The translations under genes were made by a program, and so were the position numbers. Source: Paramyrothecium sp. XJ0827 (Eukaryota > Ascomycota > Sordariomycetes > Hypocreales > Stachybotryaceae). From it: a stretch of DNA of 64,000 nt. The notes below the pieces were generated by a model. That model saw only the letters and a list, made by a program, of their open reading frames with translations, was not told the origin of the DNA and did no database searches. Shown here in pieces: positions 36,356 through 54,739 of this stretch. The stretch is from positions 1,116,001-1,180,000 of the forward strand of contig JAJFPB010000011.1 of NCBI GenBank assembly GCA_020881915.1, read 5' to 3'. The number at the start of each line of letters is the position of its first letter. Positions within the stretch are counted from its first letter, which is position 1.

Positions 36356-36706
36356 GAGCAGTGGCTCCTAATCCTATGGCAGCATGACGCCTGGTGTCGC
36401 TTTGAATAGAATTGAAAGGGGCTCAGCTGGTCCGCTGCGGTCCCGTTGCTGCGATTGCACCGTCCGTGATGCCCACAAAATCAGGAAATTTATGCTGATA
36501 GTACATAGGTCAATGTACTGCGGGGCAGGGCGAATATGTCATTAACCCAATTTGGCAATTTTGTAGTTATTTTGGGGGTTTTGCAACAGTGACCCCTATA
36601 GCCTGCCATAGTGCATGATAAGCGAACGCTCCAGACAAGCGAACGCTCCACTAATCCCTCATCCTACATCATCATCCAAAGATCAATTGATTCACAACAA
36701 CTAGGC

Positions 36707-38167
36707 ATGTCTACCTTAAATAATGAAGCAAATATCCTTCTTGCACTTCAAGCCCTTCAAAAAGATCCAAAATTAAGCTTGCGACGCGCTGCAACTATCT
36801 ATAATATCTCTCGCTTTACACTGCAGCGCCGGCAACAGGGCATACAGTCCCGACGCGATATTATAGCCAATTCGCGTAAACTATCTGATCTTGAGGAACA
36901 GACAATAGTTCAATATATCCTTGACCTGGATACACGAGGGTTTCCCCCCCGGCTTTGTGGTGTTGAAGATATGGCCAATCGACTGCTTGCTGAACGCAAT
37001 ATGCTTCCAGTTGGGCAACGCTGGGCTTCAAACTTTATCAGGCGGCAACCAGAGCTTAAGACGCGTTTCTTTCGCAGGTATGACTATCAAAGAGCCAAAT
37101 GCGAAGACCCAGCTATTATAAATGCGTGGTTTTTGCTTATGGCGAACACAATCGCGAAGTACGGCATAAGATCAAATGATATATACAACTTTGATGAGAC
37201 AGGCTTTATGATGGGCGTTATTGCAAGCGGTATGGTTGTTACAGGCACAGAAAGGCGTGCAAACCCTAAAAAGGTTCAGCCTGGAAACCGTGAATGGGTT
37301 ACTACGATTCAATCGATCAATGCTGAAGGGTGGGCGCTGCCGCCATTCATCATCGTTGCAGGCCAATATCACCTCTCTAGCTGGTATCGAGAAAGCAACC
37401 TCCCGGCCGATTGGGCTATTGCAACCACCAAGAATGGCTGGACCGATAACGAGACGGGCTTCCAGTGGCTAAAGCACTTCAATCAATATACAATCAAAAG
37501 ATCAAATGGTGCCTATCGTCTTCTGGTCCTTGACGGGCATGAGAGCCACCATTCGGTTGCTTTTGAGGAATATTGCAAGGAGAACAACATCATTACGCTA
37601 TGCATGCCACCTCATTCATCTCATCTACTCCAGCCACTTGATGTAGGATGCTTTGGGCCGCTCAAAAAGGCATATGGGCGAGAAATAGAGCAATTAATCA
37701 AATGCTCTATAACACACGTTTCTAAGACTGAGTTCTTCCCAGCGTTTTATGCCGCACACCAAGCCACTATGACGGAAAAAAATATCAAAGGAGGCTTCCA
37801 AGGGGCCGGGCTTATTCCTTTAGATGCAGACCATGTGATCTCAAAGCTTGATATTCAGTTACGAACTCCAACGCCGCCAGTGGGTGAGCCAGCTCTTCCT
37901 GCCTTTTGGGTTCCGAAGACCCCAAAGACAGCCCTTGAGGCAGAATCTCAATCTGAATTCATTGAGAGGCGAATTAGAAGACATAAGAGCAGCTCTCCAG
38001 CATCAATTGTTGAGGCATTGAAGTCTTTTTCTAAGGGAACGAAGGCAATTATCTATAGGATGGCTCTATTAGAGTCAGAGGTTAAGGATCTTCGAGAGGC
38101 AAATGCAATACTAAGCCGGCGCCGGAGGGAAAAAAAAAGAAACACCTACGTAATGGAGGGACGATGA
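36707..38167 (+). CDS. P1 transposase (truncated by poly-A frameshift)
   Basis: 486 residues from the ATG at 36707, which aligns with the start of P2. Order: psq-type HTH (about 1-50; recognition segment NISRFTLQRRQQGIQSRRD), CENP-B/Tc5-like HTH (RWASNFIRRQPELKTRFFRR), then a DDE_1 core with FDETGFMMG, VLDGHESHHS and LLQPLDVGCFGPLK. All three catalytic Asp residues are present. A run of 9 A (38130-38138; 7 in P2 and P4) shifts the frame, so the CCHC zinc knuckle falls in a separate frame at 38164-38364 (CGICGKTGHNARTC). The catalytic part could still be made. Transposases of this type bind the end repeats and cut at TA. Confidence 0.88.
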   Translation: MSTLNNEANILLALQALQKDPKLSLRRAATIYNISRFTLQRRQQGIQSRRDIIANSRKLSDLEEQTIVQYILDLDTRGFPPRLCGVEDMANRLLAERNMLPVGQRWASNFIRRQPELKTRFFRRYDYQRAKCEDPAIINAWFLLMANTIAKYGIRSNDIYNFDETGFMMGVIASGMVVTGTERRANPKKVQPGNREWVTTIQSINAEGWALPPFIIVAGQYHLSSWYRESNLPADWAIATTKNGWTDNETGFQWLKHFNQYTIKRSNGAYRLLVLDGHESHHSVAFEEYCKENNIITLCMPPHSSHLLQPLDVGCFGPLKKAYGREIEQLIKCSITHVSKTEFFPAFYAAHQATMTEKNIKGGFQGAGLIPLDADHVISKLDIQLRTPTPPVGEPALPAFWVPKTPKTALEAESQSEFIERRIRRHKSSSPASIVEALKSFSKGTKAIIYRMALLESEVKDLREANAILSRRRREKKRNTYVMEGR

Positions 38168-38364
38168 CTATAGACGAAGGTCAGGCATCAATTGATCAAA
38201 TTGAGGTAGATAGTCAGATAGTGACCGAATCGTCGAGAAGAGGTGGTCAAGGGAGGTCATTGCAATCGAGGCCAAGGCGCTGTGGCATTTGCGGCAAGAC
38301 AGGGCATAATGCACGAACATGCAAGGCAGAGATACGGGTCTCTAGACAAGAGTATAGCGATTAG
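38164..38364 (+). CDS. P1 zinc-knuckle tail in separate frame
   Basis: 66-residue frame opening with an ATG that overlaps the end of the P1 main frame. It matches the last ~66 residues of P2 and ends QEYSD. It contains CGICGKTGHNARTC, a CCHC knuckle. It is the displaced C-terminus of the P1 transposase; independent translation is possible but unproven. Confidence 0.6.
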   Translation: MTIDEGQASIDQIEVDSQIVTESSRRGGQGRSLQSRPRRCGICGKTGHNARTCKAEIRVSRQEYSD

Positions 38365-38529
38365 TTTCAATTGATCAAATGGTTCGTTGTGTTTTATTGA
38401 AGTTTCTGTTGTAAGGGTTGAGATTTTTGGAGCGTTCGCTTATCTGGAGCGTTCGCTTATCATGCACGTTAGTCCTAGAAAATCTGGAACTTCTAGTGCA
38501 GCATAATTTACTAGCATCTCCTTGTACTA

Positions 38530-40389
38530 ACGTACATGATAAGCGAGTCGGTCAGACAAGCGAGTCGGTCAAAAATCCCTCATCCTACATCTCAATCAAT
38601 TGATCAAATGATTCACCACAACTAGCCATGTCAAACTTAATTCAAGAGGCTAATATTATTCTTGCACTTCAAGCCATTCAAAAGGACCCAAAATTAAGCC
38701 TGCGACGCGCTGCAAAGGCCTACCAGATTCCATATAGTACTCTGCTTGATCGTAAGCACGGCAGACAATCCCGACGCGATATTATGGCCAATTCGCGTAA
38801 ACTATCTGATCTTGAGGAACAGACAATAGTTCAATATATTCTTGATCTAGATATGCGAGGGTTTTCTCCCCGGCTTTGTGGTGTTGAAGAAATGGCCAAT
38901 CGACTGCTTGCTGAGCGCGAGATGCCTCCTGTTGGTCAACGCTGGGCTTCGAATTTTATTAGGCGGCAACCAGAGCTCAAGACGCGTTTCTTTCGCAGAT
39001 ATGATTACCAGAGGGCCAAATGCGAAGATCCAATCGCAATAAACGCGTGGTTTTCGCTCGTGGAGAACACAATCGCGAAGTACGGCATAAGACCAGATGA
39101 TCAGTACAACTTTGATGAGACTGGCTTTATGATGGGCGTGATTATGAGCGGTATGGTTGTTACAGGCTCAGAAAGGCGTGCAAACCCTAATAAGGTTCAG
39201 CCCGGAAACCGTGAATGGGTCACAGTAATTGAATCGATCAATGCCGAAGGGTGGGCGCTGCCGCCGTTCATCATCGTTGCAGGCCAATATCACCTCTCTA
39301 GCTGGTATCGCGAAAGCAACCTCCCGGCCGACTGGGCTATTGCAACCACTAATAATGGCTGGACCGACAACGAGACGGGCCTTGAGTGGCTAAAACACTT
39401 CAATCGGCATACTATCAAAAGATTAAATGGTGCCTATCGTCTCCTGATCCTTGACGGTCATGAGAGCCACCATTCGGTTGCTTTTGAGGAATTCTGCAAG
39501 GAGAACAAGATCATTACGCTCTGTATGCCGCCCCATTCATCTCACCTACTCCAGCCGCTAGATGTGGGCTGCTTTGGGCCGCTTAAGAAGGCTTATGGTC
39601 GAGAAATAGAGCATTTGATCAAGTGCTCTATAACACACATTTCCAAGACCGAGTTCTTTCCCGCCTTCCACGCCGCACATCTAGCCACGATGACTAATAA
39701 CAATATTCGGGGAGGGTTCAAAGGCGCCGGACTTGCTCCTTTAGATGCGAACTATGTGATCTCGAAGCTTGATATTCGGTTACGAACTCCAACGCCTATT
39801 ATCGATGAGCCGGAGCTTCCTGCCCCTTGGACTTCAAGGACCCCAAAGACAGTCAGGGAAACTGAATCTCAATCTGAATACCTAAGAAGACGAATCAGAA
39901 GACATAAAAGTAGCTCCCCAGCATCAATTATTGATGCCTTGAATTCATTTTCTAAGAGTTTACTTGCAAATCAGCATAAGATGGCACTACTAGAGGCTGA
40001 GAACCGCGATCTTCGAGAGGCAAATGAGATACTAAGCCGGCGCCGGAGGGAAAAAAAGAAACGCCTACGGGATGGAGGGACAATGACTGTAGGGGAAGGC
40101 CAGGCATCAATTGATCAAATAGATGTAGATACGCAGGTAGTGGCCGAATTGTCGAGGCGAGGTGGTCAAGGAAGGTCAGGGCAACCAACCCAACGGCGAT
40201 GTGGTGTATGCGGCAAGCCCGGCCATAATGTACGAACATGTCAGGCAAAGATAGAGGTATCTGGGCAAGAGTATAGCGATTAGTTCTAATTGATCAAATG
40301 ATCTGTGGTGTTTTAATTGAGGTTCCTGCCTTGAGGGTTGAGATTAGTGACCGACTCGCTTGTCTGACCGACTCGCTTATCATGTACGT
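38530..40389 (+). mobile_element. pogo/Fot-like transposon P2 (complete)
   Basis: 1860 bp with perfect ends beginning ACGTACATGATAAGCG, flanked by TA on both sides (38528-38529, 40390-40391). Two tandem 13-bp sites AAGCGAGTCGGTC at each end (left 38541-38553, 38558-38570). It encodes an uninterrupted transposase, so it is the best candidate for an active copy. Starts 60 bp after P1. Confidence 0.95.
38628..40283 (+). CDS. P2 transposase, intact
   Basis: 551 residues, single exon. HTH_psq at 1-50 with recognition segment QIPYSTLLDRKHGRQSRRD; CENP-B/Tc5-like HTH around 60-130; DDE_1 nuclease with YNFDETGFMMG (Asp163), LILDGHESHHS (Asp276) and LQPLDVGCFG (Asp312). Then a coiled, basic segment (SRRRREKKKRLRDGG) and a C-terminal CCHC knuckle (CGVCGKPGHNVRTC, about 525-538). 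Catalytic residues, both DNA-binding domains and the element ends are all intact. P1, P3 and P4 are close relatives, with the clearest divergence in the first HTH. Confidence 0.93.
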   Translation: MSNLIQEANIILALQAIQKDPKLSLRRAAKAYQIPYSTLLDRKHGRQSRRDIMANSRKLSDLEEQTIVQYILDLDMRGFSPRLCGVEEMANRLLAEREMPPVGQRWASNFIRRQPELKTRFFRRYDYQRAKCEDPIAINAWFSLVENTIAKYGIRPDDQYNFDETGFMMGVIMSGMVVTGSERRANPNKVQPGNREWVTVIESINAEGWALPPFIIVAGQYHLSSWYRESNLPADWAIATTNNGWTDNETGLEWLKHFNRHTIKRLNGAYRLLILDGHESHHSVAFEEFCKENKIITLCMPPHSSHLLQPLDVGCFGPLKKAYGREIEHLIKCSITHISKTEFFPAFHAAHLATMTNNNIRGGFKGAGLAPLDANYVISKLDIRLRTPTPIIDEPELPAPWTSRTPKTVRETESQSEYLRRRIRRHKSSSPASIIDALNSFSKSLLANQHKMALLEAENRDLREANEILSRRRREKKKRLRDGGTMTVGEGQASIDQIDVDTQVVAELSRRGGQGRSGQPTQRRCGVCGKPGHNVRTCQAKIEVSGQEYSD

Positions 40390-40433
40390 TATTCTATTCT
40401 GCAGTCTTTATTGGCTCAGATCCCAGTCTGGTA

Positions 40434-42292
40434 ACGTACACCACAAGCGAAAGTCACAACTAAGCGAAAGTCACAAAAATCTCTCAACCTACAACCTACC
40501 AATTCAATCAACCAATTCTCAACAAATCAACATGCCACAGCTAAATGATGAAGCTAATATTATTCTTGCCCTTCAAGCCCTTCAAAAAGACCCAAAATTA
40601 AAAGTCGGGCGCGCTGCATCAATCTACCAAGTCTGCAGACAGAAGCTGGGCCGCCGTCACCGAGGCACACCATCTCGACACAATATTATAGCCAATTCCC
40701 GTAAACTATCTGATCTTGAGGAACAGACGATAGTTCAGTATATCCTTTACCTGGATTCACGAGGATTTTCTCCCCGGCTTCGTGGCGTTGAAGATATGGC
40801 TAATCGCTTACTTGCTGAGAGCGCGACGCGTCTCCCGTTGGAACACATTGGGCTTCCAACTTCGTCAAACGGCAACCAGAGCTCCGGACGCGTTTCTTTC
40901 GCAGATATGACTACCAGAGAGCCAAATGCGAAGATCCAATCGCGATAAGCGCGTGGTTCGCGCTCGTGGCGAACACAATCGCGAAGTATGGCATTGGATC
41001 AAATGATATCTATAACTTTGATGAGACTGGCTTTATGATGGGCGTGATTGCGAACGGTATGGTCATTACAGGCACAGAAAGGCGTGCAAACCCTAAGAAG
41101 GTTCAGCCTGGAAACCGTGAGTGGGTTACAGTCATTGAATCGATCAATGCTGAAGGGTGGGCGCTGCCGCCATTCATCATCGTTGCAGGCCAATATCACC
41201 TCTCTAGTTGGTATCGCGAAAATAACCTCCCGGGCGATTGGGCTATTGCAACTACTAAAAATGGCTGGACCGATAACGAGACGGGCTTCGAGTGGCTAAA
41301 GCACTTCAATCGGCATACAATTCAGCGATCAAATGGTGCCTATCGTCTCCTGATCCTTGATGGGCATGAGAGCCACCACTCGGTCGCCTTCGAGGATTTT
41401 TGCAAGGAGAATAAGATCATCACGCTCTGTATGCCGCCTCATTCATCTCACCTGCTCCAGCCTCTTGATGTGGGCTGCTTTGGGCCGCTTAAAAGGCATA
41501 TGGACGAGAAATAGAGCATTTGATCAAATGCTCTATCACACATGTTTCCAAGACCGAGTTCTTTCCCGCCTTCCACGCCGCACACCAAGCTACTATGACC
41601 AAGAAAAATATCGAGGAGGCTTCCGAGGTGCCGGCCTTGCTCCTCTTGATGCAAACTATGTGATCTCGAAGCTGGATGTGAAGTTAAATACTCCAACGCC
41701 TCCTAAGGGAACCCCTGACCTTCCCGACCCTTGGGTTTCAAAGACCCCAAGACAGTCAGAGAAACTGATTATCAATCCGAATACCTTGAAAAGCGAATTA
41801 AAAGACATCAAAGCAGCTCCCCGGCATCAATTATCCAAGCATTAAGGTCATTGACCAAGGGAACTAAAGCAAACTCGCATCGAATAGCATTATTAGAGTC
41901 TGAGGTCAAGGACCTTCGAGAGGCAAATGTAATACTAAGCCGGCGCCGCAGAGAAAAAAGGAAACGCTTACGCGATGGAGGGACAATGACTGTAGAGGAA
42001 GGTCAAGCATCAATTGATCAGACGGATGTTGATATGCAGATATTGGCGGAAACATCGAGGAGAGGAGGTTCGGGAGGGTCAGCGCGACCGAGGGAAAGGC
42101 GCTGTGGTGTATGCGGCAAGCCCGGGCATAATGCACGAACATGTAAGGCAGATATTCCAGCCTCTGGAGATAAGTATAGAGATTAATTTGAATTGATTTT
42201 ATGGTCTGCTGTGTTTTGATTGAATTTCTTATTGGAAGGGTTGAGATTTTTGTGACTTTCGCTTAGTTGTGACTTTCGCTTGTGGTGTACGT
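40434..42292 (+). mobile_element. pogo/Fot-like transposon P3
   Basis: 1859 bp with ends ACGTACACCACAAGCG, flanked by TA (40432-40433, 42293-42294). Two tandem 13-bp sites AAGCGAAAGTCAC per end (left 40445-40457, 40462-40474; spacer AACT rather than AGAC). 44 bp after P2, same orientation. Confidence 0.93.
40532..42186 (+). pseudogene. P3 transposase, multiple frameshifts
   Basis: Starts MPQLNDEANIILALQALQKD with recognition segment QVCRQKLGRRHRGTPSRHN. Frame is lost near 40828 (before the Tc5-like HTH), regained for the catalytic core at 40966 (FDETGFMMG, ILDGHESHHS, LLQPLDVGCFGPLK), then lost near 41498, again near 41610 and again near 41748. It ends with an intact zinc knuckle (CGVCGKPGHNARTC). 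Each break is a one- or two-base indel against P1/P2. The ends are intact, so it may still be mobilised by a transposase that recognises its sites. Confidence 0.9.
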
Positions 42293-42453
42293 TAGTCACA
42301 CCATGACCTAGTGTGACCACCCACCAAACTGGCACTACCCCCAAACCGGCAGGTGGAACGCGACGCGCCCAAATGAACTCACCATAGTAACTGCACCACA
42401 ACTTGATCAATTCTAGTCCAAATTTAATTCTTTCTTCGTCTGTACGTACCAAA

Positions 42454-43954
42454 ATGAATGATCGTGAGATTCTGATAGCTGAAGCACTGCAGAACGTCGA
42501 GGAAGGTGCCACAATCGCAGCGGTCGCACGCGACTACGGAATCCCTCGGTCGACCCTCTCCGACCGGCTTCGCGGCGCTCAACCACGCAACAACATCTCG
42601 ATGATGACCCAAAGTCTATCTCCCATACAAGAAGAGTCCCTGATCCAATGGATCCTAGATGCTGGAGCTGCCGGAAGGTCCCCGTCGCATCGTGAGATCC
42701 ACGAATTCGCAGAGTTGATCCTAGGGGGCGGGGAGCGTGGACAGGTCCTCGGCCACAACTGGGTCGCCCGGTTCATTGCCCGGCATCCAGATATTAAAAA
42801 GAAGCCCTCGCGGCAGCTCGAAGCCCTACGATCGAAATCGACACAGTCAGAACGCCTGGAGGCGTGGATTTTGCTTGTCAAACAGCTCGTCAGACGCCTC
42901 AATATTGGTCCTGACTGTCTGTATAATATGGATGAGACGGGCATGGCCGAAGGGGAAACAAGACACGGAAGAGTCATTGGATCGAGCCTTTTACGCTATG
43001 GGGCCGTCACAGACAGCGATCCAACGCCGTGGGTGACGGCAATCGAGGCTGGAAGCGTCCAAGGGCACATTACGACGCCTGTGATCGTATTCGCCGGCGC
43101 AACATTGCAAGGACAGTGGTTTCCACGGCATTTTCCGACTTGGGCTTACGATTCTAGTGAGACAGGGTGGGCAAATAGTAGGATCTTATTGAAATGGCTG
43201 AAGCAGGTTTTCCTACCCGAGACGAAGCCTAAAGACCCCGACCCGATGGCGCCTTCTAATTGTCGACGGCCACGCAGCCCATTTGACCATAGCTTTCCAA
43301 TATGCGGCTTGGATCAACCGTTGCTATGTCCTCTACCTTCCATCGCACACATCGCATGTGTCCCAGCCACTAGATGTAGGCGTTTTCTCACCACTGAAGG
43401 CAGCATTCAGAAAAAACACCCGTCCATACGCCTTGTTCGAGACAACAGCGCCCAAGCAGAAACAACGGTTCCTGTCTGCCTATGAAGACGCCCGTAAGGT
43501 GGCCTTGACGAAAGAAAACCTCAAAGCCGGGTTCCAAGCAACAGGTCTGTGGCCCATTGACCCTGACCGGCTCATCAGAGCAGCCCGCGGGGCAGAACGC
43601 CCACCAGCATCGAACCCGACGCCCCGGACGCCCCCGATGCCTCGAACGAATACAGAACAACTGTGGAAAACGCCGAAAAACAGCTCTGCTTTCAAGGATA
43701 TGATGGACGGGCTTATCCTTGATTCTATTTCTATGGAATCTAACCTTCAGACAATAAAGACGAAGACAGCGAAGGAAATGGACAGAAAGGATGCGCAGAT
43801 TGCCGCCCTGCTTGTCCGGAACGGCCACCTAGAGGCTGAATTAGATTCCCGGCAGCCTCAAAAACGTAGAAAAGTAAACCATGACCCTAATAAGGAATTT
43901 CCCGGTGTTGAAGTTATCTCAGCGGCTCGAGAAGCGGCTCAAGTCAATGACGAG
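42454..43954 (+). pseudogene. Second, more distant pogo-like transposase (P5), frameshifted
   Basis: The ATG at 42454 opens MNDREILIAEALQNVEEGAT with a psq-type HTH (GIPRSTLSDRLRGAQPRNN), a Tc5-like HTH (LGHNWVARFIARHPDIKKKP) and YNMDETGMAEG (first Asp). A one-base shift near 43245 (CCCGACCCGATGG) moves the rest into the 43283-44032 frame. There LLIVDGHAAHLTI, HTSHVSQPLDVGVFSPLKAA, a coiled-coil tail and QKRRKV follow. The 3' end of the element is replaced at 43955 by a hAT-2 end. The left boundary between 42295 and 42453 is not certain. It belongs to the same superfamily as P1-P4 but to a different lineage. Confidence 0.85.
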
Positions 43955-45464
43955 CAGCGCTCATCATATGTCAATCAAATCAACTTTGACCTCAAAGTTG
44001 ATTTGATTGATAGCCCTCGAGCTCAAAGTTGATTTGTTTGATTTGATTGATGTTCTATATCAATTCTATAGGTGGAGACCCCTACGCGAAGTCGTCCCCC
44101 TCGTGCACACCAAAAGTCAGCTACCCACCCAGCTACCCACCCAGCTACCCAACTTTACTCCGCCCTGCCTGACCCAGTTCTTGAGGCACTGAACTTGTTC
44201 CAATGTATCCGAGCCCATCGAAAGCCTCTGAGACGTCAACGTCAGCTTCGCTAGGCTAAATTGCCTCTCACAATCGCTTGCCATCGCTGGAATAGCAAAG
44301 ACATCCAGAGCAAAGCTGCTCAGTGAAGGAAACGAAGCCCTGTGGTCTCTCCACCATTGGATAGCATCCTGCGTATCCTGTGGCTCGAGACGGAGATACC
44401 TTTCGAGCTCGCCGACACTGCCGCTCGTCGCAAACGCTTTCTTCGTCTTGCTGTTAATCCATTGAGTGTACTGATCATCCTCTTGGCCCATCGTCCTTGG
44501 CGCTGCGTCGTACTTCATTGTTTCTTCACACAGTCCCTGGTTCGCGTCGTACCAACGGGTAAAGCATCACGAACCCAGGCGAGTTGTTCCTCAGAGACCC
44601 AAGTAGCCTCTAACCAGCTGATCCCGAACCTCGGATGAAGAATGGTCGCTGCCGCAAACAAGGGAGATTCTCCGAGTTTGTCATAATACTCATTTAGCTT
44701 CTTCCACCCGTTGTTAATCGATGCCCGGATATAGGCTCGATGGTCTGCTGGTAATGTGCTCTTTTGCGACGTCTCGGACGCTGATCGCTTCTCCACCGTG
44801 GAATATTCAGCCCGAGAATGCAGCGGTAAGGCAGATTCTATGAATCTCGTGGGTTGGCTCCGCTGCGGTAGCGCGTAAACCTCATCTTCGTCAAAGCGGG
44901 CAGGGAGACGGCGTACGCGGCTTGGCCGGCTGTTGCGCTCACGGAAATTTGTCGGCGCCGTTGCAATCCGCTCCGCGGCATCCAGATGAGTTTCACCCAC
45001 TGTCTCCGCCGCAACTTCACCATAGAAGACTTTCCAGTCCTCAAAGTGCTCCAGTAGATATTCCATTCCTATCAACACCTCCCATAGGCGTCCATGGCTG
45101 TCGCCTTTACCCCAGCCTTGCGTGCGTCCGCATCGTCTGAAGGTATATAGGTTTGAGAATCTCGTTCACTTCGCCAAGAACCCGCCAGTCTTCGCTGGAC
45201 AATATGTCATCCGCCGGGATACGTCTTGCCTCGTTTTCCTCCTCTTGAATCGCAAAGAGAAATGCCCTGATGTCTGTCTGCTTTCGCAAAGCCCTCTCAA
45301 TCATCATGTACGTTGAGTTCCACCGCGTTTCGTTGTTCATGACAACCTCGAGCTCGGCCGTGGATTCCTCGCAGAGCCGATATCCCTCGTAATCCTGCTC
45401 CCGGGCAATTCGCTTGAACTGTTCACTCCGCTGCGGCGACGAACGGATAAACTTGACGATATTA
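43955..45464 (-). mobile_element. hAT-2 copy B, truncated
   Basis: Begins with the same inverted end as copy A (CAGCGCTCATCATATGTCAA) and follows 15234-16747 nearly base for base, then stops at 45464. The right half and second inverted end are missing. Relative to copy A it has an extra unit of a 12-bp repeat (CCCAGCTACCCA, about 44120-44150), lacks 22 bp near 44564 and gains 4 bp near 45121. It inserted into, or recombined with, the 3' end of P5. Confidence 0.9.
44117..45340 (-). pseudogene. hAT-2B transposase fragment
   Basis: Minus-strand C-terminal half of the hAT-2 transposase in three frames (45107-45340, 44515-45078, 44117-44518). It contains NNETRWNSTYMMIERAL and the dimerisation domain LSSFALDVFAIPAMASDCER. 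It keeps the base that copy A lost near 16130 (ATGAATCTC), but the 22-bp deletion and 4-bp insertion break the frame elsewhere. Confidence 0.85.
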
Positions 45465-46654
45465 CAGGACTACACTAAACGTCAAGATATGTACGTGCCC
45501 CAAAAAGGAGAGATGGTGGTCCCGCACCAAGCACTCCCAGCTCTAGTCAATCCAAGAATAATGCTACTATGGCAAGCGGGAAAAAGTACACAAACAACAT
45601 AGGGCTACTTAATTGCAATGTACCTATTGTGACAAGACATGGGGCTTCGAACTGCCTAGGAGATAAACTACACCATTGAAATTTTAGCAAGCGTTGGAAG
45701 TTAGATCCTTAGTGCCTCCGCCGACCGGTCTGGAACCCCTCTCGGAAAGGCTGTTACAATCCATTTCGTCAATCCGCCTTTGTGCATTATATCCAAAGTT
45801 TTGTGGCGTTGCGGTTTCATTTAGCATACATAGGCTTGTTGCTAGCACACACACACACACACGGAGTCTATTACGCCCGATGACTTGCGCCAGAAGGGCC
45901 ACTATCAGCTGTCTACATTATCCCTTCCACCATTATGTCCTAATCCCTAGGTAAACATAAACAACGATACTAACCATGACTGTGATGACTGAGCGACCCG
46001 GGAGTAGAATGGCAATAGCACCGGGTTATCATCCCACATTATTCCTTTTTATATTCCGTTTTTAGATGTCTTACAGCCAACAGACACACGTGGCATGACA
46101 AGCGTATAGTGGCTTGGCTTAAGTAGGACCATTTTGAAGCCAGTTAGACATCGACGATTCTCAAGCGCCGGGGGTGCCTCTTTAAGAACCGACCGAAGCT
46201 TCAAGCCACTCGGGTCAGTGGCCCCTACCTTCCTGCTCAATGTAGTCGACATACGTCAGATTTGTCTGGGTACCTAGGTAGCTGTATTATTAACGCCGTT
46301 GTCAAATCAGCTCTAGTTCGACAGCGAATTGCCAAATTGTTCACTAAAGTTGGTTTGTGATGCAAGTGGAATCGGGGCCAATACAGATTCAGGACTAAAT
46401 AGCATCCGAAGTCGTGGCAAGATTGTCAAAGAAAAGAATGATCAAGCCGTCTATTTAAATGCAACATTCACTCGCGTCCGTCACTGAGTTTCCAGGCCCA
46501 CGTTGCAATCCCAACCCAACATACTTGATACTTCACCCTGATTGTTCTCTTCTATCCATAACTCGCGATTAGTTGTTTCCAACGCCTCGAAGCATACATC
46601 TCTTTCAATCAACTTGATTTAGATTTTTTAACTTCCTGAATATTAAAGTCGAGC
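45465..46654. other. No gene recognised; promoter of secreted repeat protein
   Basis: A (CA)n microsatellite at 45846-45861 and short frames only. The last ~200 bp are presumably the promoter and 5' UTR of the 46655 gene (C/T-rich at 46490-46620). Confidence 0.45.
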
Positions 46655-47404
46655 ATGAAATTCACCCCCGCAATTTGCGCTGCCATTTTATACTTTCCAG
46701 CTGTCTTTGCTGCTCTGGCCGATCCCGTCGCGAAAGATCTCGAAAGTCGAACCAACAAAATGCCAAACGAGATGTACATCAGGGCGGGCAATAGCGGATT
46801 GGGCGAAGATGGCGAGCCAGGCTGGGGAACAGCGGGAGGCAAGGGCTGGAGCAGCGACGGAGGCAAGGGCTGGGGCAGCGACGGAAGCAAGGGCTGGGGC
46901 AGCGACGGAAGCAAGGGCTGGGGCACCGACGGAAGCAAGGGCTGGGGCAGCGACGGAAGCAAGGGCTGGGGCACCGACGGAAGCAAGGGCTGGGGCACCG
47001 ACGGAAGCAAGGGCTGGGGCACCGACGGAGGCAAGGGCTGGGGCACCGACGGAGGCAAGGGCTGGGTCACCGACGGAGATACAAGTGGCGTAGATGGACA
47101 TGAGGGAAGAGGATATGGAGGCAACGGAGGAGGTGGTGGAGGCCAAGGGCATAGTGACGGAGGCCAGGGAGGTAACGAAGGACGAGGCGGTAAAGGTAAA
47201 GGACACGGTGGTGGAGGTCAAGGAGGCAAGGACGGAAACCAAGGCGGTAGCCAAGATGGCAAGGACGGAGCTGGCCCTGGAGGAGGTAAGGGTGGTGTCG
47301 GCCGCGGCGGCTCAGGTGGTCATGGAGGTTCTGGCTCGGGTGGTAACGGTGGCTCGGGTGGCTATGGCAAAGGTGGCAGTGGTGGTGATTGTGGACACTG
47401 GTAA
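46655..47404 (+). CDS. Secreted glycine-rich tandem-repeat protein
   Basis: 249 residues, single exon. A signal peptide (MKFTPAICAAILYFPAVFAA) is followed by a short spacer (DPVAKDLESRTNKMPNEMYI). Then come 11 tandem copies of an 8-residue unit, GWG[ST]DG[SG]K, with small changes in the first two and the last. A long Gly/Lys/Asp/His-rich tail (GGGGQGHSDGG, HGGSGSGGNGGSGGYGKG) ends in GDCGHW. The regular Trp-Gly/Lys pattern suggests an exported structural, wall-associated or effector-type protein. The repeats lack dibasic (KR/RR) sites, so classic Kex2 release of repeats is not indicated, though single Lys residues recur. The long antisense frames here are codon-bias shadows. Confidence 0.75.
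   Translation: MKFTPAICAAILYFPAVFAALADPVAKDLESRTNKMPNEMYIRAGNSGLGEDGEPGWGTAGGKGWSSDGGKGWGSDGSKGWGSDGSKGWGTDGSKGWGSDGSKGWGTDGSKGWGTDGSKGWGTDGGKGWGTDGGKGWVTDGDTSGVDGHEGRGYGGNGGGGGGQGHSDGGQGGNEGRGGKGKGHGGGGQGGKDGNQGGSQDGKDGAGPGGGKGGVGRGGSGGHGGSGSGGNGGSGGYGKGGSGGDCGHW
46820..47090 (+). repeat. 24-bp tandem repeat inside secreted protein gene
   Basis: Eleven units of 24 bp of the type GGCTGGGGCACCGACGGAAG plus CAAG, differing mainly at AGC/ACC and AGC/GGC codons. Units 3-8 are almost identical, indicating recent expansion. Confidence 0.85.
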
Positions 47405-49512
47405 GGACCAGTAGTGACGCTTTGGCCAAGTTATTGCCGATAATACTATTATTTTGGAAAGGATTAAGAAAGGCAGGATATAAGAATTCATTGAACTATG
47501 CAACTGTAAGAATTAAAATTGAATCTCTGTCCACAGGCTTGTTCGCATCGTGCGCTACATCCAGATCAAATTAAAGTATTTATTCCTGGGGTTCATGCTT
47601 CTAATGGCAACAAGCTGTTGTATGATTGATAGATTTTATCTAGTCGTCAGCTGGAGGATTCACCAGCTGGAAACAAGTTCGCTATGGAGAGGTTCCAAGC
47701 CATATATGTCCGTGTCGATGACTGTTCGCCCTTGCAGCGAAGGATCGCGCTTCAGATGCTGAATAGCTTATCGAACTACTCCGTCACGTGGATCGTTGCT
47801 TTCTTCGGAAAAGAAAAAAATTGCTTGCTTGGAAACAATTACACGACTGCACTGATTCGTAAAGGCAAATTCAGGTTGTTCACGGCTTGCAACCCAACCC
47901 GCTAGAAGCGGAGAGGCATGCGATGTGGTACTCTTGTTCGCAAATAGGAGAAGCACTTTAGTGCCAGAATGAATCCGTATGCTTCGCAGCACTATCCAGT
48001 AGATGTCTTGTCAGCAATGTGTCTAATTATCGCCCGACCTCGACGACTATGAAGCCCTCAATCTCTCGAGACCTCGAACAAAGGCATAAGGAAGACATGA
48101 AATTTGAGCTTTCTGGTTACTACATGGCGGAAAATAATTCTCGCCATCAATTCGGTAAACTTGAGCCCCTAATAGAGGAAAAGTGCCGACAACTTGAAGG
48201 CCGTATATCTGGAACCCTAATGGTCATTTGACTACTAAGCATAAAATATTGGCCAAAGAAAACAAGGTCTTGGATCCATTCTTACCAATGCTAGGGAACC
48301 CTACAGCAACATTCCAGACCTCGGATTTGTTAAGTTTCAAAGTACCTTGCATCATTGATGCTTGATATCCAAGTGAAAGCAAGGTGAAGTCTGATATCAC
48401 TATTTAGACAACAACGAAAGATTGACTAGGAACCCTATCGTCTCACAAAAGACAGACACAAGTTGGGCACAACGGACAATGCCTGCACCATGGATCACTG
48501 GTGTCGTGGGCTGTTACTTGGCCACATTTTTCGACCACGGCCAATGGCATCATGGTGCCACTGCAGTTCCTCAGCTACCATAATGCAAAGTCAACACGTG
48601 TGTTTTGGTAGCAAGTCTTTAATGCAGTTAGCTCGGGGGGCCGTATGCTCGTCGGGTCAGACTGGAAAAGCAAACAGATGTTATTATCTTCTACAAAGTT
48701 CTCGATAGAAGAACGCTGATTGGAAACTAAGGACTTGCTTTCATTGAGCTGGATCATTCCTCATGTATACACCGCTAAAGAAAGAGGTAAAGGACTCGCG
48801 AGGACAAAGTTGGACAGCTGACGGTGGAAGCAGAACGCGCTGCAGTGCTTCATGTATAATCACAAGGCCCAAAGAACTACCCCATCACCTGATCAGCTTA
48901 CCAACATCTATTCGTCACAATTATCTTCTAGAAACCAAGTCCAATGATTGCATCGTAGTTGCTACTCAACTTGCTTAACCAACGATGGAAGTTCGAGATT
49001 AATACAGCACCTTTATCCCCAATGTAACCCTCCCCAGAAAATAAGGTTGAGAAAATGGGCCATTTTTGTTGTTTTTGGTTACGAATACCATAAAATAATG
49101 CAAGTTTAAGACCCTGTGCCAAAACCGTGGTACTTAAGTCTTTTCCACTTTGAGTCCGGCGCAACGTTGGTCAACCACTTCTATAAACTATCGTGATTGA
49201 GCCATTGTAATGCTCTGCATGTCCCATTGATTCGCGGTGTGGAGATTGGAAAAACCTTGATTTCTGAGTGAGATCTAGTGTCGACTCTTTGTCCTTGCAT
49301 ACGCCATCGTGTAAACGGTAATAATGTGCCATCATTAAACCTGCCTCGGATGCATGGTTGAATAAACGTATCCTTGTGGGCTGTATTAATCGGAAACCGC
49401 CTCCATTCATCCTAGATATCTTCTAGGTATTTTATACATTTGTTAGTTGGCCCTACATGTTCAGCCATTTTTAGGCTTCGCGAAGAGGGCTCCATATGTT
49501 AAAATACAAATG
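47405..49512. other. No gene recognised (2.1 kb)
   Basis: Scattered frames of 60-80 residues, none with a family pattern or splice-consistent neighbour. A 70-residue plus-strand frame at 48019-48231 (HKEDMKFELSGYYMAENNSR) is the most protein-like, but I cannot support it. Confidence 0.4.
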
Positions 49513-49567
49513 ACGTATATGATAAGCGAGTGTCACAGACAAGCGAGTGTCACAAAATCCCTCATCC

Positions 49568-52500
49568 CAGTGAAGTAAATAGTGTGGCCGTAAATAAGAC
49601 AATATCATATTCAATATCGTATTGCCTGCACGGTATAAAAATACCGTGCAGTGCAAGCAACACCGGAAACCGTGCAATACAGTGCATGGTCGTTCAAATA
49701 TCGTATAAATATGATATCAAATATAGTGCAAGTACTATGTAATACGAGTAGTACGAGGATTCTCCCCATATATGAAGCATTATGAAGATCCCAATTTACA
49801 GGACTTTTTACTAACGAAGTGTAACCTGGTTGATCTGCACTCGGTTGATTGCCGATAGTAATAACGCCACCAAATAAAGGCCTCGTCACAAACTCCTGAG
49901 TGTTTGAGTGAGTATGTAACAAGCTCGCCAGCTCTCCGAGAGCTTTCAGTTCTTCTTTTCTTCAATGCAATCAATTTGTTGGTTTCCAAGCATGCTTCTG
50001 GACGAATAAGGCCTATGCCCCTGACATGAAGCGTGTCAGCTCCTGAACTTTTCCCTACTTCCTCAACAAGTCTTATCCTACGAAATAATGGCTTCTCAGC
50101 GCTCAGGCATTAGCGCTTCCTTCACGGCTACATCATCCCAGACTTCCCTAGCCCCTGGTTCGTCGGTTATCAGCGACAACGGAGATTCTGATGTCGGAGA
50201 GACATCTATTTCGCCGTTGTTAACCTCTCAATTTAAGAAGAAGAAGCGTACGTCGAAGATATGGGATCATACGCCCTTCGGAAGGAATCAGATCGTCCGT
50301 AATACGGAAGGTCAGATTATATGGCGTTGCAAGTACTGTAAAGGGAAGCCTGCCGAATATCTCGAAAATGGAGGCACGGCACACATCTACAAGCACCTTA
50401 AATCTCACACTACTCTCGATATATTAACGCCTAATGAAGAAAGGGCTGCTAAAACAAGGAATCACCTTGAGGAAGCCTTCTCACGGATGTCTCAGAACAC
50501 GAATCCCCTCAAACGCCGTCGACACGATGACGAAACGACAGATCTTGACGCTGATAAGTTTGAGCAACTGTATGTAGAGTGGATTGCAGACTGCGGGATT
50601 GCACTTCGTATAGCAACAAGAGAAAGCTTTCGAGCGTAAGTGCTCTAATACACTTAATATTAATGGTTCATATACTAATCTTATGCCCTTTTAGCTTGCT
50701 CAAATTCCTCAATCCTGGAGTCCTCTCGATTTTACCTACATCACATCAAACGATTCGCGAGTGGGTGATGCGAACGTTTGAGACGCAAAAGCGACGTATA
50801 CGACAAGTTCTCCAATCAGCTATCTCGAGAATACACTTCACCGTCGATATATGGTCCTCTCCAAATAAGCTTGGTATCCTTGGTATTGTTGCACACTTCA
50901 TTGATAGCAACGGCGAGCTGGTTTCATATTGTGTCGCTTTACGAGAGGTACACGGCAAGCATTCAGGAGAGAATCAGGCCCATATTGTGATGAATGTCGT
51001 CGAGGACTACGGAATTGTCACCCAGATTGGATACTTTGTTTCAGACAATGCAGACTCGAATGATACGTTGATGAATTCTCTACAGAAATGCATGCCTCTA
51101 TCAACTTATTGAGAGAATAATACTAATGATTAATAGTGTTGAACGAGAGGCACAATATCATATACGACGCGAAACATCACCGCCTTCGTTGTAACGGTCA
51201 TACCATCAATCTAGCGGCTCATGCGTTTATGTTCCCAAAAACCGCACCCGACGAAGCCCCTACGAAAAACCAGGTTAAAAAGGACACTACGAGCGAATAT
51301 ATCAAGCCTTCAGACGCTGATATATTGAAGTGGAGGAAGGCTGGTCCTCTTGGCAAGCTCCACAACATCGTTGTCTTTATCCGATGTAGTCCACAACGGA
51401 TACAGAGGTTTAAGGAGATCAGTGAGAAAAAGGGTCTTCTTCGTGACAACGATACAAGATGGAACTCAAAGTACTACATGATTGAGAGAGCCATTGAGCT
51501 CGCAGATCAAATTGATTACTATTGCTCAAAGGAGAAGGACCTTAAGCTTGATTCGCGTATGCTATATATCCAATTGAGAGGACAACACTAATAGTTTCTA
51601 GTTTCCGAACAAGACTGGGCTGAGCTGAAAAAATTTGCAACTTCCTCAAGTCATTCACCGATGCCACCAAGGCTGCAGAAGGTCACGCGCATACAATCGA
51701 TCGAACGCTACCCATAATGGACTTCCTGCTTAGCGAATTTGAGGCTGCACGAATCGAGTACGCAGATGACGCTTTTATGACGCCTTGTATTGATGCTGGA
51801 TGGGCGAAACTCGACGCATATTACACTCTTACAGAGCGGTCACCTGCTTATGTTGCAGCTATTGTCCTCAGCCCTCATCGAAAGTGGCACTACTTTGACA
51901 CCGCCTGGGAGGAACATCCTGAGTGGATTGAGAGCAATAAGACTGCCGTAGAAGATCTCTGGAAGTCTCGTTACGCACCAGTCGCCAAGTCAGCGGAGTC
52001 GTCGACCCAGTCCTTGGTTGAAAAGCCACTAGTGAAGAACTCGTTTCTTGCATGGGAAGACGAACATGAGGATCCCGAGCTTCCTACCCTATTTGACGAG
52101 TATCAGAACTATATATCAGCCCCAAGAATCAAAGTCAAGGATGTACGAAGGTGGTGGCTTGAGGATACACAACAAACGCTCTATCCAAACCTTTCCAAAA
52201 TGGCGCTCGATCTTTTGTCAATTCCTGCGATGTCTGCTGAGCCAGAACGTCTCTTCTCTGATACAAAAATCACCCTCCAAGATCGCAGGAACAGGTTAGG
52301 GATTGATATAATTGAGGCAATTGAGTGCATAAAGTCCTGGTCGAAGACTCACAAATTGGCTTGGGTTGACGACGTTGAGCTTGTCTTGGATACAGCTATC
52401 ATTGGAGAAGAGGAACAGCAGGGGTCTTCTAACATTATACCTGATATTACGAGCAATAGATAGTATGCAAACAATTCAAACTCATAATGCTCGAATCTGT

Positions 52501-52927
52501 GAAGTTTTCTTTTGACCTCTAGATCTACCTACTTCATTCTCACACCTAAGCAATAGGAGTGACGTTAAATTAGTCAATTATGTAGCTTAAGTAAACCCTT
52601 AACATACGCGAGCGAGGTCTAGGAAAACGTTTTCCCGAGCGTTCTCGCTATCTGGCAATAGTATAATCTTATATGTTGGCTGTGAATGGCTTCATCTTGT
52701 TAGGGTCCGTGAGACTATCTTGAGCCTCAACCTTACTCAATTTGGTTAGTTTTATGCTTAGGCCATGCGGCTCTTCGCACGCCGTGCGATATGATATTAC
52801 GATACGATATTGCTTAAATATAGTGGAATACCGTATACCGTGCAGTGCACCGAATTCCTAAACAATCCAGTGCAGTGTGGCGTTGAAAAAATATCGTATA
52901 CCGTATTTTGCACTATTTACTTCACTG
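49568..52927 (+). mobile_element. hAT transposon (hAT-1), full length, nested in P4
   Basis: 3360 bp with perfect 17-bp inverted ends CAGTGAAGTAAATAGTG and an exact 8-bp target duplication CCTCATCC (49560-49567, 52928-52935). Contains one transposase gene on the plus strand. It is the parent type of the deleted copy at 1752-2612. Confidence 0.97.
50088..52463 (+). CDS. hAT-1 transposase (multi-exon; one-base deletion near 51630)
   Basis: Exon 1, 50088-50635, has a BED zinc finger (WRCKYCKGKPAEYLENGG ... IYKHLKSH). Intron GTAAGT...TTTAG. Exon 2, 50695-51089, has RIHFTVDIWSSPNKLGIL and FVSDNADSNDTLMNSLQ. Then a possible GC-AG intron (GCATGC...TAATAG). Exon 3, 51137-51556, has RLRCNGHTINLAAHAFMF and DNDTRWNSKYYMIERA. 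Intron GTATGC...TTCTAG. Exon 4 begins SEQDWAELKK, but an A6 run at 51628-51633 seems one base short. The frame then resumes as ICNFLKSFTDATKAAEG and continues through 51717-52463 with the dimerisation domain (LSKMALDLLSIPAMSAEPER). hAT enzymes excise and insert the element with 8-bp duplications. The apparent deletion would block the full-length product. Confidence 0.85.
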
Positions 52928-52977
52928 CCTCATCCTACATCCTTACCGAAAGATCAAATGATTCACCACAATTAAAG

Positions 52978-54643
52978 ATGTCAATCTCGAATAACGAAGC
53001 TAATATCAATCTTGCACTTCAAGCCCTTCAAAAGGACCCAAAATTAAGCATCCGACGCGCTGCATCTATCTATAATATCTGTTACCAAACCCTAGGCCGG
53101 CGCCAAAGAGGCATTCAATCCAGACGCAATACTATGGCTAATTCGCGTAAGCTATCTGATCTTGAGGAACAGACGATAGTTCAATATATCCTTGATCTAG
53201 ATACGCGAGGGTTTTCTCCCCGGCTTTGTGGTGTTGAAAATATGGCTAATCGACTGCTTACTGAACGCGATGCGTCCCCAGTTGGGCAACGCTGGGCTAC
53301 AAACTTCATTAGGCGGCAACCAGAGCTCAAGACGCGTTTCTTTCGGAGATATGACTACCAGAGAGCCAAATGCGAAGACCCAGCTATTATAAATGCGTGG
53401 TTCTTGCTTGTAGCGAACATAATCACGAAGTACGGTATAAGATCAAATGATACGTACAACTTTGATGAGACAGGCTTTATGATGGGCGTTATTGCAAGCG
53501 GTATGGTCGTTACAGGCACAGAGAGACGTGCAAACCCTAAAAAGGTTCAGCCTGGAAACCGTGAATGGGTTACTACGATCGAATCAGTCAATGCAGAAGG
53601 GTGGGCGCTGCCGCCGTTCATTATCGTTGCAGGCCAATATCACCTCTCTAGCTGGTATCGAGAAAGCAACCTCCCGGCCGATTGGGCTATTGCAACTACT
53701 AAAAATGGCTGGACAGATAACGAGACGGGCCTCGAGTGGCTAAAGCACTTCAATCAACATACGATCAAAAGATCAAATGGTGCCTATCGTCTCCTAGTCC
53801 TTGATGGGCACGAGAGGCCACCATTCGGTCCCTTTTGAGGAATACTGCAAGGAGAATAAGATTATTACACTATGCATGCCACCTCATTCATCTCACCTAC
53901 TCCAGCCACTTGATGTAGGTTGCTTTGGGCCGCTTAAAAAAGCATATGGGCGAGAAATAGAGCAATTGATCAAATGCTCTATAACACACATTTCCAAGAC
54001 CGAGTTCTTCCCAGCGTTTTATGCCGCACACCAAGCCACTATGACGGAAAGCAATATCAAGGGAGGCTTCCGAGGGGCCGGGCTTGTTCCTTTGAATGCA
54101 GACTATGTGATCTCGAAGCTTGATATTCAATTACGAACTCCAACGCCGCCAGTGGGTGAGCCAGCTCTTCCTGCCCCTTGGGTCTCGAAGACCCCAAAGA
54201 CTGTTAGGGAAAGCGAATCTCAATCTGAATACCTTAAAAGACGAATTGAAAGACATCAAAGCAGCTCCCCAGCATCAATCATTGAGGCTTTAAAGTCAAT
54301 GACCAAGGGTTTAAAGGGCACAATGCATGAGATGACATTATTGAGGGCTGAGGTCAAGGATCTTCGAGAGGCAAATGCAATACTAAGCCGGCGCCGGAAG
54401 GAAAAAAAGAAACGGCTACGTAATGGAGGGACGATGACTATAGATGAAGGTCAGGCATTAATTGATCAAATTGAGGTAGATAGTCAGGTAGTGGCCGAAT
54501 CGTCGAGAAGAGGCGGTCAAGGGAGGTCATCGCAATCGAGGCTGAGACGCTGTGGCATTTGCGGCAAGACTGGGCATAATGCACGAACATGCAAGGCAGA
54601 GATAGAGGTCTCTGGGCAAGAGTATAGCATTAGTTTCAATTGA
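52978..54643 (+). pseudogene. P4 transposase, frameshifted
   Basis: ATG at 52978; psq HTH with recognition segment NICYQTLGRRQRGIQSRRN. DDE core with FDETGFMMG, then an extra G near 53814 (GAGAGGCC versus GAGAGCC in P1) shifts the frame inside LVLDGHES. The rest is read in the 53801-54643 frame with LLQPLDVGCFGPLKKAYG, the basic coil and the CCHC knuckle (CGICGKTGHNARTC). A second small deletion removes the normal stop after QEYS, adding ISFN. Confidence 0.92.
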
Positions 54644-54739
54644 TCAAATGGTTCGTTGTGTTTTTATTAAGGTATCTATCTTGAGGGTTGGGTTTTTTGT
54701 GACACTCGCTTGTCTGTGACACTCGCTTATCATATACGT

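Follow-up and report, generated by a model that had tools for sequence, protein, structure and literature searches.

Covariation of terminal half-sites and a transposase recognition helix in a family of pogo-like elements of Paramyrothecium sp. XJ0827

Introduction

The closest described relatives of the transposons treated here, elements P1–P4 in a window of 64,000 nucleotides (C2:1116001–1180000) of the genome of Paramyrothecium sp. XJ0827, are the DAHLIAE1 elements of Verticillium dahliae, which are 1861–1862 bp long, encode a 551-aa transposase with HTH_psq, HTH_Tnp_Tc5 and DDE_1 domains, and have ends starting with ACGT, internal direct repeats of 15–17 bp and a TA target (PMC3441728). 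In the excerpts of that paper to which we refer, as we refer to excerpts of the others cited here, five subfamilies differ in their termini and open reading frame (ORF), and it is stated in general terms that the combination of terminus and transposase ensures the specificity of transposition (PMC3441728). Fot5-A/C of Fusarium poae is 1865 bp long with a 51-bp terminal inverted repeat (TIR) (PMC4994206), and the TIRs of pogo elements are flanked by TA (or TAA) target duplications (PMC7386202). Tc1-Mariner elements of Sclerotinia sclerotiorum are 1.8–2.3 kb long with HTH_psq, HTH_Tnp_Tc5 and DDE domains, ACGT ends and a TA target, and their combinations of end and transposase are said to give some specificity; they differ from the elements described below in that the TIRs are reported without direct repeats, and the excerpt draws no relation between helix and terminus (PMC4188875).

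More distant parallels exist. In the VANC/VANDAL system of Arabidopsis a DNA-binding protein encoded by the element diverges between sister families together with the tandem motif that it targets, but VANC is an anti-silencing factor and not a transposase, and its variable regions are often peptide repeats instead of a single helix (PMC5735166). Bacterial RAYT transposases coevolve with REP repeats, with matching tree topologies, but these are tyrosine transposases with palindromic repeats, and the relation described is one of co-descent and not of residue to base on shared backbones (PMC2817692). CENP-B (1hlv) likewise carries two helix-turn-helix (HTH) motifs in one DNA-binding part and has a bipartite box, but it is a domesticated protein with a single specificity.

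P1–P4 are like DAHLIAE1 in size, ORF length, ACGT ends, TA target and internal repeats of 15–17 bp, and nearly of the same size as Fot5. They belong to one known family, the Fot5/DAHLIAE1-like pogo elements, and this family has very probably diverged here into about two dozen specificities, with the recognition helix of the first HTH (HTH1) reading a terminal half-site and the second HTH (HTH2) reading a core. The element family and the general pairing of terminus and transposase are thus known already. What differs from the excerpted accounts of DAHLIAE1 and Fot5 is that 25 helix types of one genome here relate the terminus to helix residues, and no description of such a residue-to-base series in one transposon family, or of a code between helix residues and half-site, was found in the literature searched, outside which lie supplements and most subscription journals.

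Helix type and half-site

Both ends of P1–P4 carry two tandem 13-bp sites, each consisting of a 6-bp core and a 7-bp half-site (Table 1). The paired pattern AAGCGA-N11-AAGCGA has eight matches in the window, exactly the two ends of the four elements, and none in 100 dinucleotide-preserving shuffles of it, so the tandem architecture proposed in the first-pass annotation is real. The half-sites it gave, ACGCTCC (P1), GTCGGTC (P2), AAGTCAC (P3) and GTGTCAC (P4), are identical at both sites of both ends (16/16), and the helix segments that it quoted, with their near-invariant protein flanks, could be re-read as stated.

The genome scanned comprises 51.8 Mb in 15 contigs, where the paired site pattern occurs at 239 places against 54 for a reversed control, and a transposase DNA motif in 128 copies with at most two mismatches. 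From the fetched loci (L-numbers) 122 distinct element starts were read, a few distant relatives included, and 98 were retained after removal of 3 without a readable helix, 5 with a stop in the helix and 16 without a tandem pair by rule. P4 is among these 16 as its sites lie beyond the inserted hAT element, and four others, of the SEPR type, have by eye the core AAGCAT or AAGTAT with the half-site GCGACGC. The rule admits a tandem pair only when its half-sites have no more than two differing bases, and agreement within an end is therefore partly by construction.

Free assortment of half-site and HTH type, named in the first-pass annotation as evidence against its pairing, is not what this larger sample within one genome gives: 97 of the 98 copies, which represent 27 helix types, have the usual half-site of their type or one that differs from it at a single base. 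Nine of the types are single-copy and agree trivially, and for the 18 types with at least two copies the figure is 88/89. The two half-sites of one 5' end are identical in 75 of the 98 copies. In 21 of the remaining 23 the sole difference is at base 1, which is degenerate and therefore probably not read.

The relation is specific to the recognition helix. For comparison of types, near-identical or degraded variants (PFST, RYQT, SRFT-Q and SCRT) were merged and PRTT, PPST and PRST left out, giving 25 types with 22 half-sites. In Mantel tests half-site distance follows the distance in six variable helix residues (r=0.24, P=0.0017; P=0.0013 when the flanking protein is allowed for), with no relation to the 50 flanking residues (r=-0.03, P=0.58). 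When each type is left out in turn, the nearest helix predicts 4.99 of 7 bases (permuted 3.81, P=0.0005) and the nearest flank just 3.87 (P=0.39). With the residues of the helix segment numbered x1–x7, base 3 goes with x7, being C in 3/3 types with Asp and G in 18/18 with Arg (Asn is found with G in two and T in one, His with G in one). Base 6 is G in 3/3 types with Glu or Asp at x2 and in 0/22 others, and base 4 is T in 3/3 types with Cys at x1 and in 0/22 others. The preferences of arginine for G and of acidic residues for C are those expected from established protein-DNA chemistry, and they would fit a geometry with x7 reading the top strand and x2 the bottom one.

The covariation is real; it is specific to the helix and extends to both ends. 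It could in principle arise by co-descent only, each helix type being an old clonal family with which the half-site travels along without recognition. The tight linkage of the 5' sites, within about 200 bp of the helix, and the many types that are groups of near-identical copies would agree with this, but half-site distance tracks the helix and is unrelated to the flanking protein, matching extends to the 3' sites, about 1.8 kb away from those at the 5' end, the half-sites of three helix types stay the same when the core changes, the backbones differ, and the chemistry-consistent associations hold in distant families too (see below), which makes co-descent on its own very unlikely. Direct recognition of the half-site by the helix is the best reading of these sequences, and we infer direct contacts and orthogonal binding by the helix types.

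Matching of the two ends

The test of end pairs used 217 sites, namely 96 of 100 listed from the 239 places (four chance-like ones being dropped), 21 of 46 further sites (the other 25 already being in the 239-place listing) and 100 listed of 114. Among the end sites listed, 53 of 58 pairs with the spacing of full-length elements have half-sites that differ by no more than one base; shuffling of the labels gave 7.1 such pairs on average and 17 at most. Ten of the 11 short end pairs listed match within one base, and the eleventh, GCGCGCA/GTGCAAC, results from a short element nested in a longer one. Among the short elements that recur, GTGCAAC is present at three places and AAGTCAC at two, and both half-sites are also those of coding families; AGCGATC, again at two places, has no cognate helix among the helices read.

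The orphan half-site belongs to elements of about 400 bp with matched ends TAGCGA+AGCGATC, at C4:874227–874629 and C4:894588–894990. Three to five tandem sites with the same 17-bp step, instead of two, are present at C2:455269–455315 and C4:950353–950426 and in L032 and L066.

Core and second HTH

The first-pass annotation took the core AAGCGA to be shared. This holds for all ends of P1–P4, but genome-wide the variants TAACGA, TAGCGA, CCCCGA and AAGCAT exist, and an invariant core is therefore rejected. The variants appear to have their own protein partner in HTH2. In 47 copies, the residue two before the tryptophan of the HTH2 helix is proline in 16/16 readable copies with the core TAACGA and in 0/29 with AAGCGA or TAGCGA, where it is Gln (16), Thr (8) or Lys (5); Gln is found in one ATACGA/TAACGA copy and Ile in one CCCCGA copy. 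The relation is weaker than that of HTH1, since it may reflect few independent events.

Helix type and core can be combined in different ways. SRFT with ACGCTCC is found with the three cores AAGCGA, TAACGA and TAGCGA, CRKK with ATGTCCC on AAGCGA and TAACGA, and PRKT with GTGGCCC on AAGCGA and TAGCGA, and the half-site GCCGCCC is common to the similar helices KWST-D and SWET-D on different cores. For two CRKK elements, L027 and L018, identity is 96% in the helix DNA and 89% in codons 61–500; for P2 and L011 it is 92% in codons 61–500 and 33% in the helix.

The half-site GCGACAC/ACGACAC is present on the core TAGCGA at C4:154062, C4:950353–950426 and C2:1789873 and with AAGCGA in L085 (PLKTLHR), possibly a further core exchange.

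Proposed mechanism and points against it

In the proposed mechanism each transposase would bind the tandem 13-bp sites at both ends with its two HTH domains, the recognition helix of HTH1 (psq) reading the 7-bp half-site, effectively bases 2–7, and the HTH2 (Tc5) domain the 6-bp core. Residues x1–x4, x6 and x7 of the HTH1 segment would set the half-site, and the residue before the HTH2 helix would go with the core type. Because the same protein would grip both ends, a helix change should persist only with matching site changes at both, and helix cassettes and backbones would be reshuffled among sister elements.

Several observations weigh against such a code. The sole exception to the agreement of helix and half-site is L019, whose 5' end does not fit its helix; since this end and the adjoining flank are shared with L066, L019 is by its sequence a chimera. 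The best single residue-base association was matched by 4 of 200 permutations over all associations, and the types are incompletely independent of one another. Arg at x2 is found with C at base 6 in just 6/8, so the code is not strict, and it is not one-to-one, as GTGGACC is common to the unlike helices SYGALWR and SHTTLLR. L029 departs from the rule for HTH2 and core. The five remaining full-length pairs (L018, L048, L083, L049 and L051) have mismatched ends.

In each mismatched pair it is the 3' end that is foreign, the helix agreeing with the 5' end, as would be expected of recombination within the frame. L041, L049 and L051 have a common 5' flank, L049 and L051 are alike across the whole compared stretch, and their 3' end is without its outer part; by this shared flank and likeness they are one insertion that was duplicated. 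The helix types might also not be orthogonal, with transposases that cross-mobilise and half-sites that are subfamily labels of little effect, and the few elements with mismatched ends yet complete termini (L018, L048) speak for this. It is an unlikely explanation, because the only repeated mismatch combination (L049, L051, and L041 by its 5' end) shares flanks and is one insertion, 18/27 helix types are multi-copy, nearly all the short pairs listed match, and two of the three recurrent short half-sites belong to coding families.

The regions C2:570.9–580.8 kb and C2:591.2–601.1 kb (L049, L050 and L051) are an inverted duplication: their pogo elements are the same but run in opposite order, and the flanks that were compared are identical.

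Divergence and selection

The helix is the least conserved part of the frame, with a mean DNA identity of 0.52 in a 30-bp window (20 elements) and 0.65–0.95 in the other windows (these windows and the pair identities were computed without L044p, a misaligned element). In 57 close pairs of 300 the proportion of synonymous differences (pS) rises from 0.33 in both flanks to 0.72 in the helix, and that of nonsynonymous differences (pN) from 0.13 and 0.08 to 0.43. A ratio of nonsynonymous to synonymous divergence (dN/dS) above 1 in the helix is not found: pN/pS is about 0.6 in the helix and never exceeds 1 in any window, and synonymous divergence peaks in the helix too. Positive selection by point mutation is not supported, as pS rises along with pN, and we favour an exchange of old cassettes. 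With both pN and pS high, the sequences suggest old helix cassettes that are maintained and moved between backbones.

The interpretation of the first-pass annotation, a natural set of orthogonal transposase/TIR pairs, is partly supported, as the covariation is helix-specific and found at both ends, and is changed in two points, with a core that is not invariant and a helix in which synonymous divergence is high too. Private specificity with a selective cause is plausible from these sequences, and the cause would be negative frequency-dependent selection, by which an element escapes from sharing a transposase; the advantage supposed in the first-pass annotation, evasion of cross-mobilisation or of host repression, would be of this kind. 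In its wider form the proposal is a two-module combinatorial address code, where HTH1 cassettes and HTH2 variants are shuffled, negative frequency-dependent selection keeps dozens of mutually private specificities within a single genome, as at self-incompatibility or restriction-specificity loci, and half-sites are predictable from the protein; this may hold, but is put forward tentatively.

The helix may also read the half-site while its specificity drifts neutrally, each transposase tracking its own ends with differences of no advantage. No selection test was positive, the ratio in the helix is about 0.6, and such a series of types can come from compensatory drift, so that neutral drift has to be taken seriously, although we would not choose it: the helix is the least conserved stretch with an excess of old diversity, 67 helix types are present in 115 readable sequences among the best 120 homologues, and the pattern of exchange around a single functional segment in which diversity is concentrated is like that of diversifying selection.

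The family is a dense natural data set of recognition-helix residues and DNA bases on similar backbones, of use for decoding the specificity of psq/CENP-B-type HTHs, and its transposases are candidates for systems that work independently of one another. With it, the old question how sister families in one genome avoid mutual mobilisation, titration or parasitism can be put to the test.

Transposase and element structure

The P2 transposase contains HTH_psq (residues 7–47, E=4e-9), HTH_Tnp_Tc5 (62–120) and DDE_1 (195–364, E=9e-31) domains, where HTH_Tnp_Tc5 scores 20.0 bits with the full protein (cut-off 22.2) and 23.4 bits with the N-terminal part. These domains place P2 among pogo (Fot/Fot-like) elements, and P2 and P3 have the TA flanks of this group; with 1860 bp, 551 aa, ACGT ends and a 17-bp repeat, P2 is DAHLIAE1-like. 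A C-terminal CCHC-like knuckle was read by eye from the P2 sequence, and its matches in the PDB were insignificant. In the predicted model the variable residues belong to, or adjoin, helix 3 of HTH1. The best structural match of the 130-residue model of the two HTHs is CENP-B on its box (1hlv), top in both fold searches with a weak score, and the relative placement of the two HTHs differs from that in CENP-B, which was not among the matches listed in two sequence searches of the PDB. The whole-protein model, unlike the 130-residue one, matches Mos1 and other DDE enzymes.

The intact 551-aa frame is found only in P2, with the frame of P1 truncated near its end and those of P3 and P4 in several pieces. 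P4 without its hAT and one copy of the duplication is 1859 bp long, the 5' end of P1 is without the terminal AC of ACGT, and by direct reading TA flanks both ends of P2 and P3 and TG is on the left of P4.

Table 1. Features of elements P1–P4 (positions in the window)
Feature	Position	Strand	Remark
P1	36611..38469	+	Fot5/DAHLIAE1-like pogo element, half-site ACGCTCC
P1 5' tandem sites	36620..36649	+	AAGCGAACGCTCC x2, step 17 bp
P1 HTH1 recognition-helix segment	36809..36829	+	SRFTLQR (x1–x7), position by homology with P2 model
P1 3' tandem sites	38429..38458	-	AAGCGAACGCTCC x2
P2	38530..40389	+	pogo element, half-site GTCGGTC, TA on each side
P2 5' tandem sites	38541..38570	+	AAGCGAGTCGGTC x2
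P2 transposase	38628..40283	+	intact, 551 aa
P2 HTH1 recognition-helix segment	38730..38750	+	PYSTLLD, residues 35–41 (model helix 36–43)
P2 Gln104	38937..38939	+	just N-terminal of HTH2 helix (106–113); position of the Pro that goes with core TAACGA
P2 3' tandem sites	40349..40378	-	
P3	40434..42292	+	pogo element, half-site AAGTCAC, frame broken
P3 5' tandem sites	40445..40474	+	AAGCGAAAGTCAC x2
P3 HTH1 helix segment	40634..40654	+	CRQKLGR
P3 3' tandem sites	42252..42281	-	
P4	49513..54739	+	pogo element, half-site GTGTCAC, interrupted by hAT, frame broken
P4 5' tandem sites	49524..49553	+	AAGCGAGTGTCAC x2
hAT element nested in P4	49568..52927	.	8-bp duplication CCTCATCC; read from sequence and open frames
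P4 HTH1 helix segment	53080..53100	+	CYQTLGR
P4 3' tandem sites	54699..54728	-	

P1, P2 and P3 follow one another in the same orientation, separated by just 60 and 44 bp, and comparable packed groups of elements occur at C4:315–323 kb and C2:1789.8–1792.4 kb. Local hopping or target preference may account for the close packing.

Distant families and homologues

Four distant families have half-sites in a register that was chosen by us, as the 7 bp before an A: TCCGGCC in L128/L135 (PRQTLQD), TCCGGCC/TCCGGAC (TCCGGMC) in L139 (PRATLQD), GCGGGCC in L111/L112 (PRTTLQA) and CCCGGTC/CTCGGTC (CYCGGTC) in L115 (PPSTVSD). The three kinds with Asp at x7 (PRQTLQD, PRATLQD and PPSTVSD) all have C at base 3, and GG at bases 4–5 is common to the distant PR kinds and three PRQ types of the main set. 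When the associations of x7 and x1 were calculated, L115 and L111/L112 had already been seen; L128/L135 and L139 were read afterwards. The repeat of DAHLIAE2, TTTCGGACACCCCCCCC (PMC3441728, excerpt), resembles the L139 unit. Fragments L126, L127, L129–L134, L136, L137 and L138, some with Asp at x7, were left out, as clear 17-bp tandem ends were lacking.

The protein search gave 700 homologues, and the best 120 of them are mostly from Fusarium among the named ones. The 67 helix types in the 115 readable of these 120 include 3 that are also present in this genome, and the series of helix types thus probably continues beyond it.

Another pogo-like element begins at 42439 in the window, with a PRSTLSD helix (Asp at x7) and tandem 17-bp repeats with CCAAACYGGC at its end; it is outside all counts, as its register is ambiguous, one unit having T where another has C. 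L140 and L141 are loci of the same type, and the copy in L140 has 17 TAG/TAA stops in its N-terminal part, which could have been left by repeat-induced point mutation.

Genomic distribution

Among 100 listed copies of the transposase motif (of 128), 65 are on C2 and C4, which make up 3.2 of the 51.8 Mb, a concentration as would be expected of accessory chromosomes. The sequence AAGCGAGATCAGTTCGAAAGCGA is found near the start of three contigs (C1:11784, C2:3958 and C3:4616) and is probably a subtelomeric repeat unrelated to the elements.

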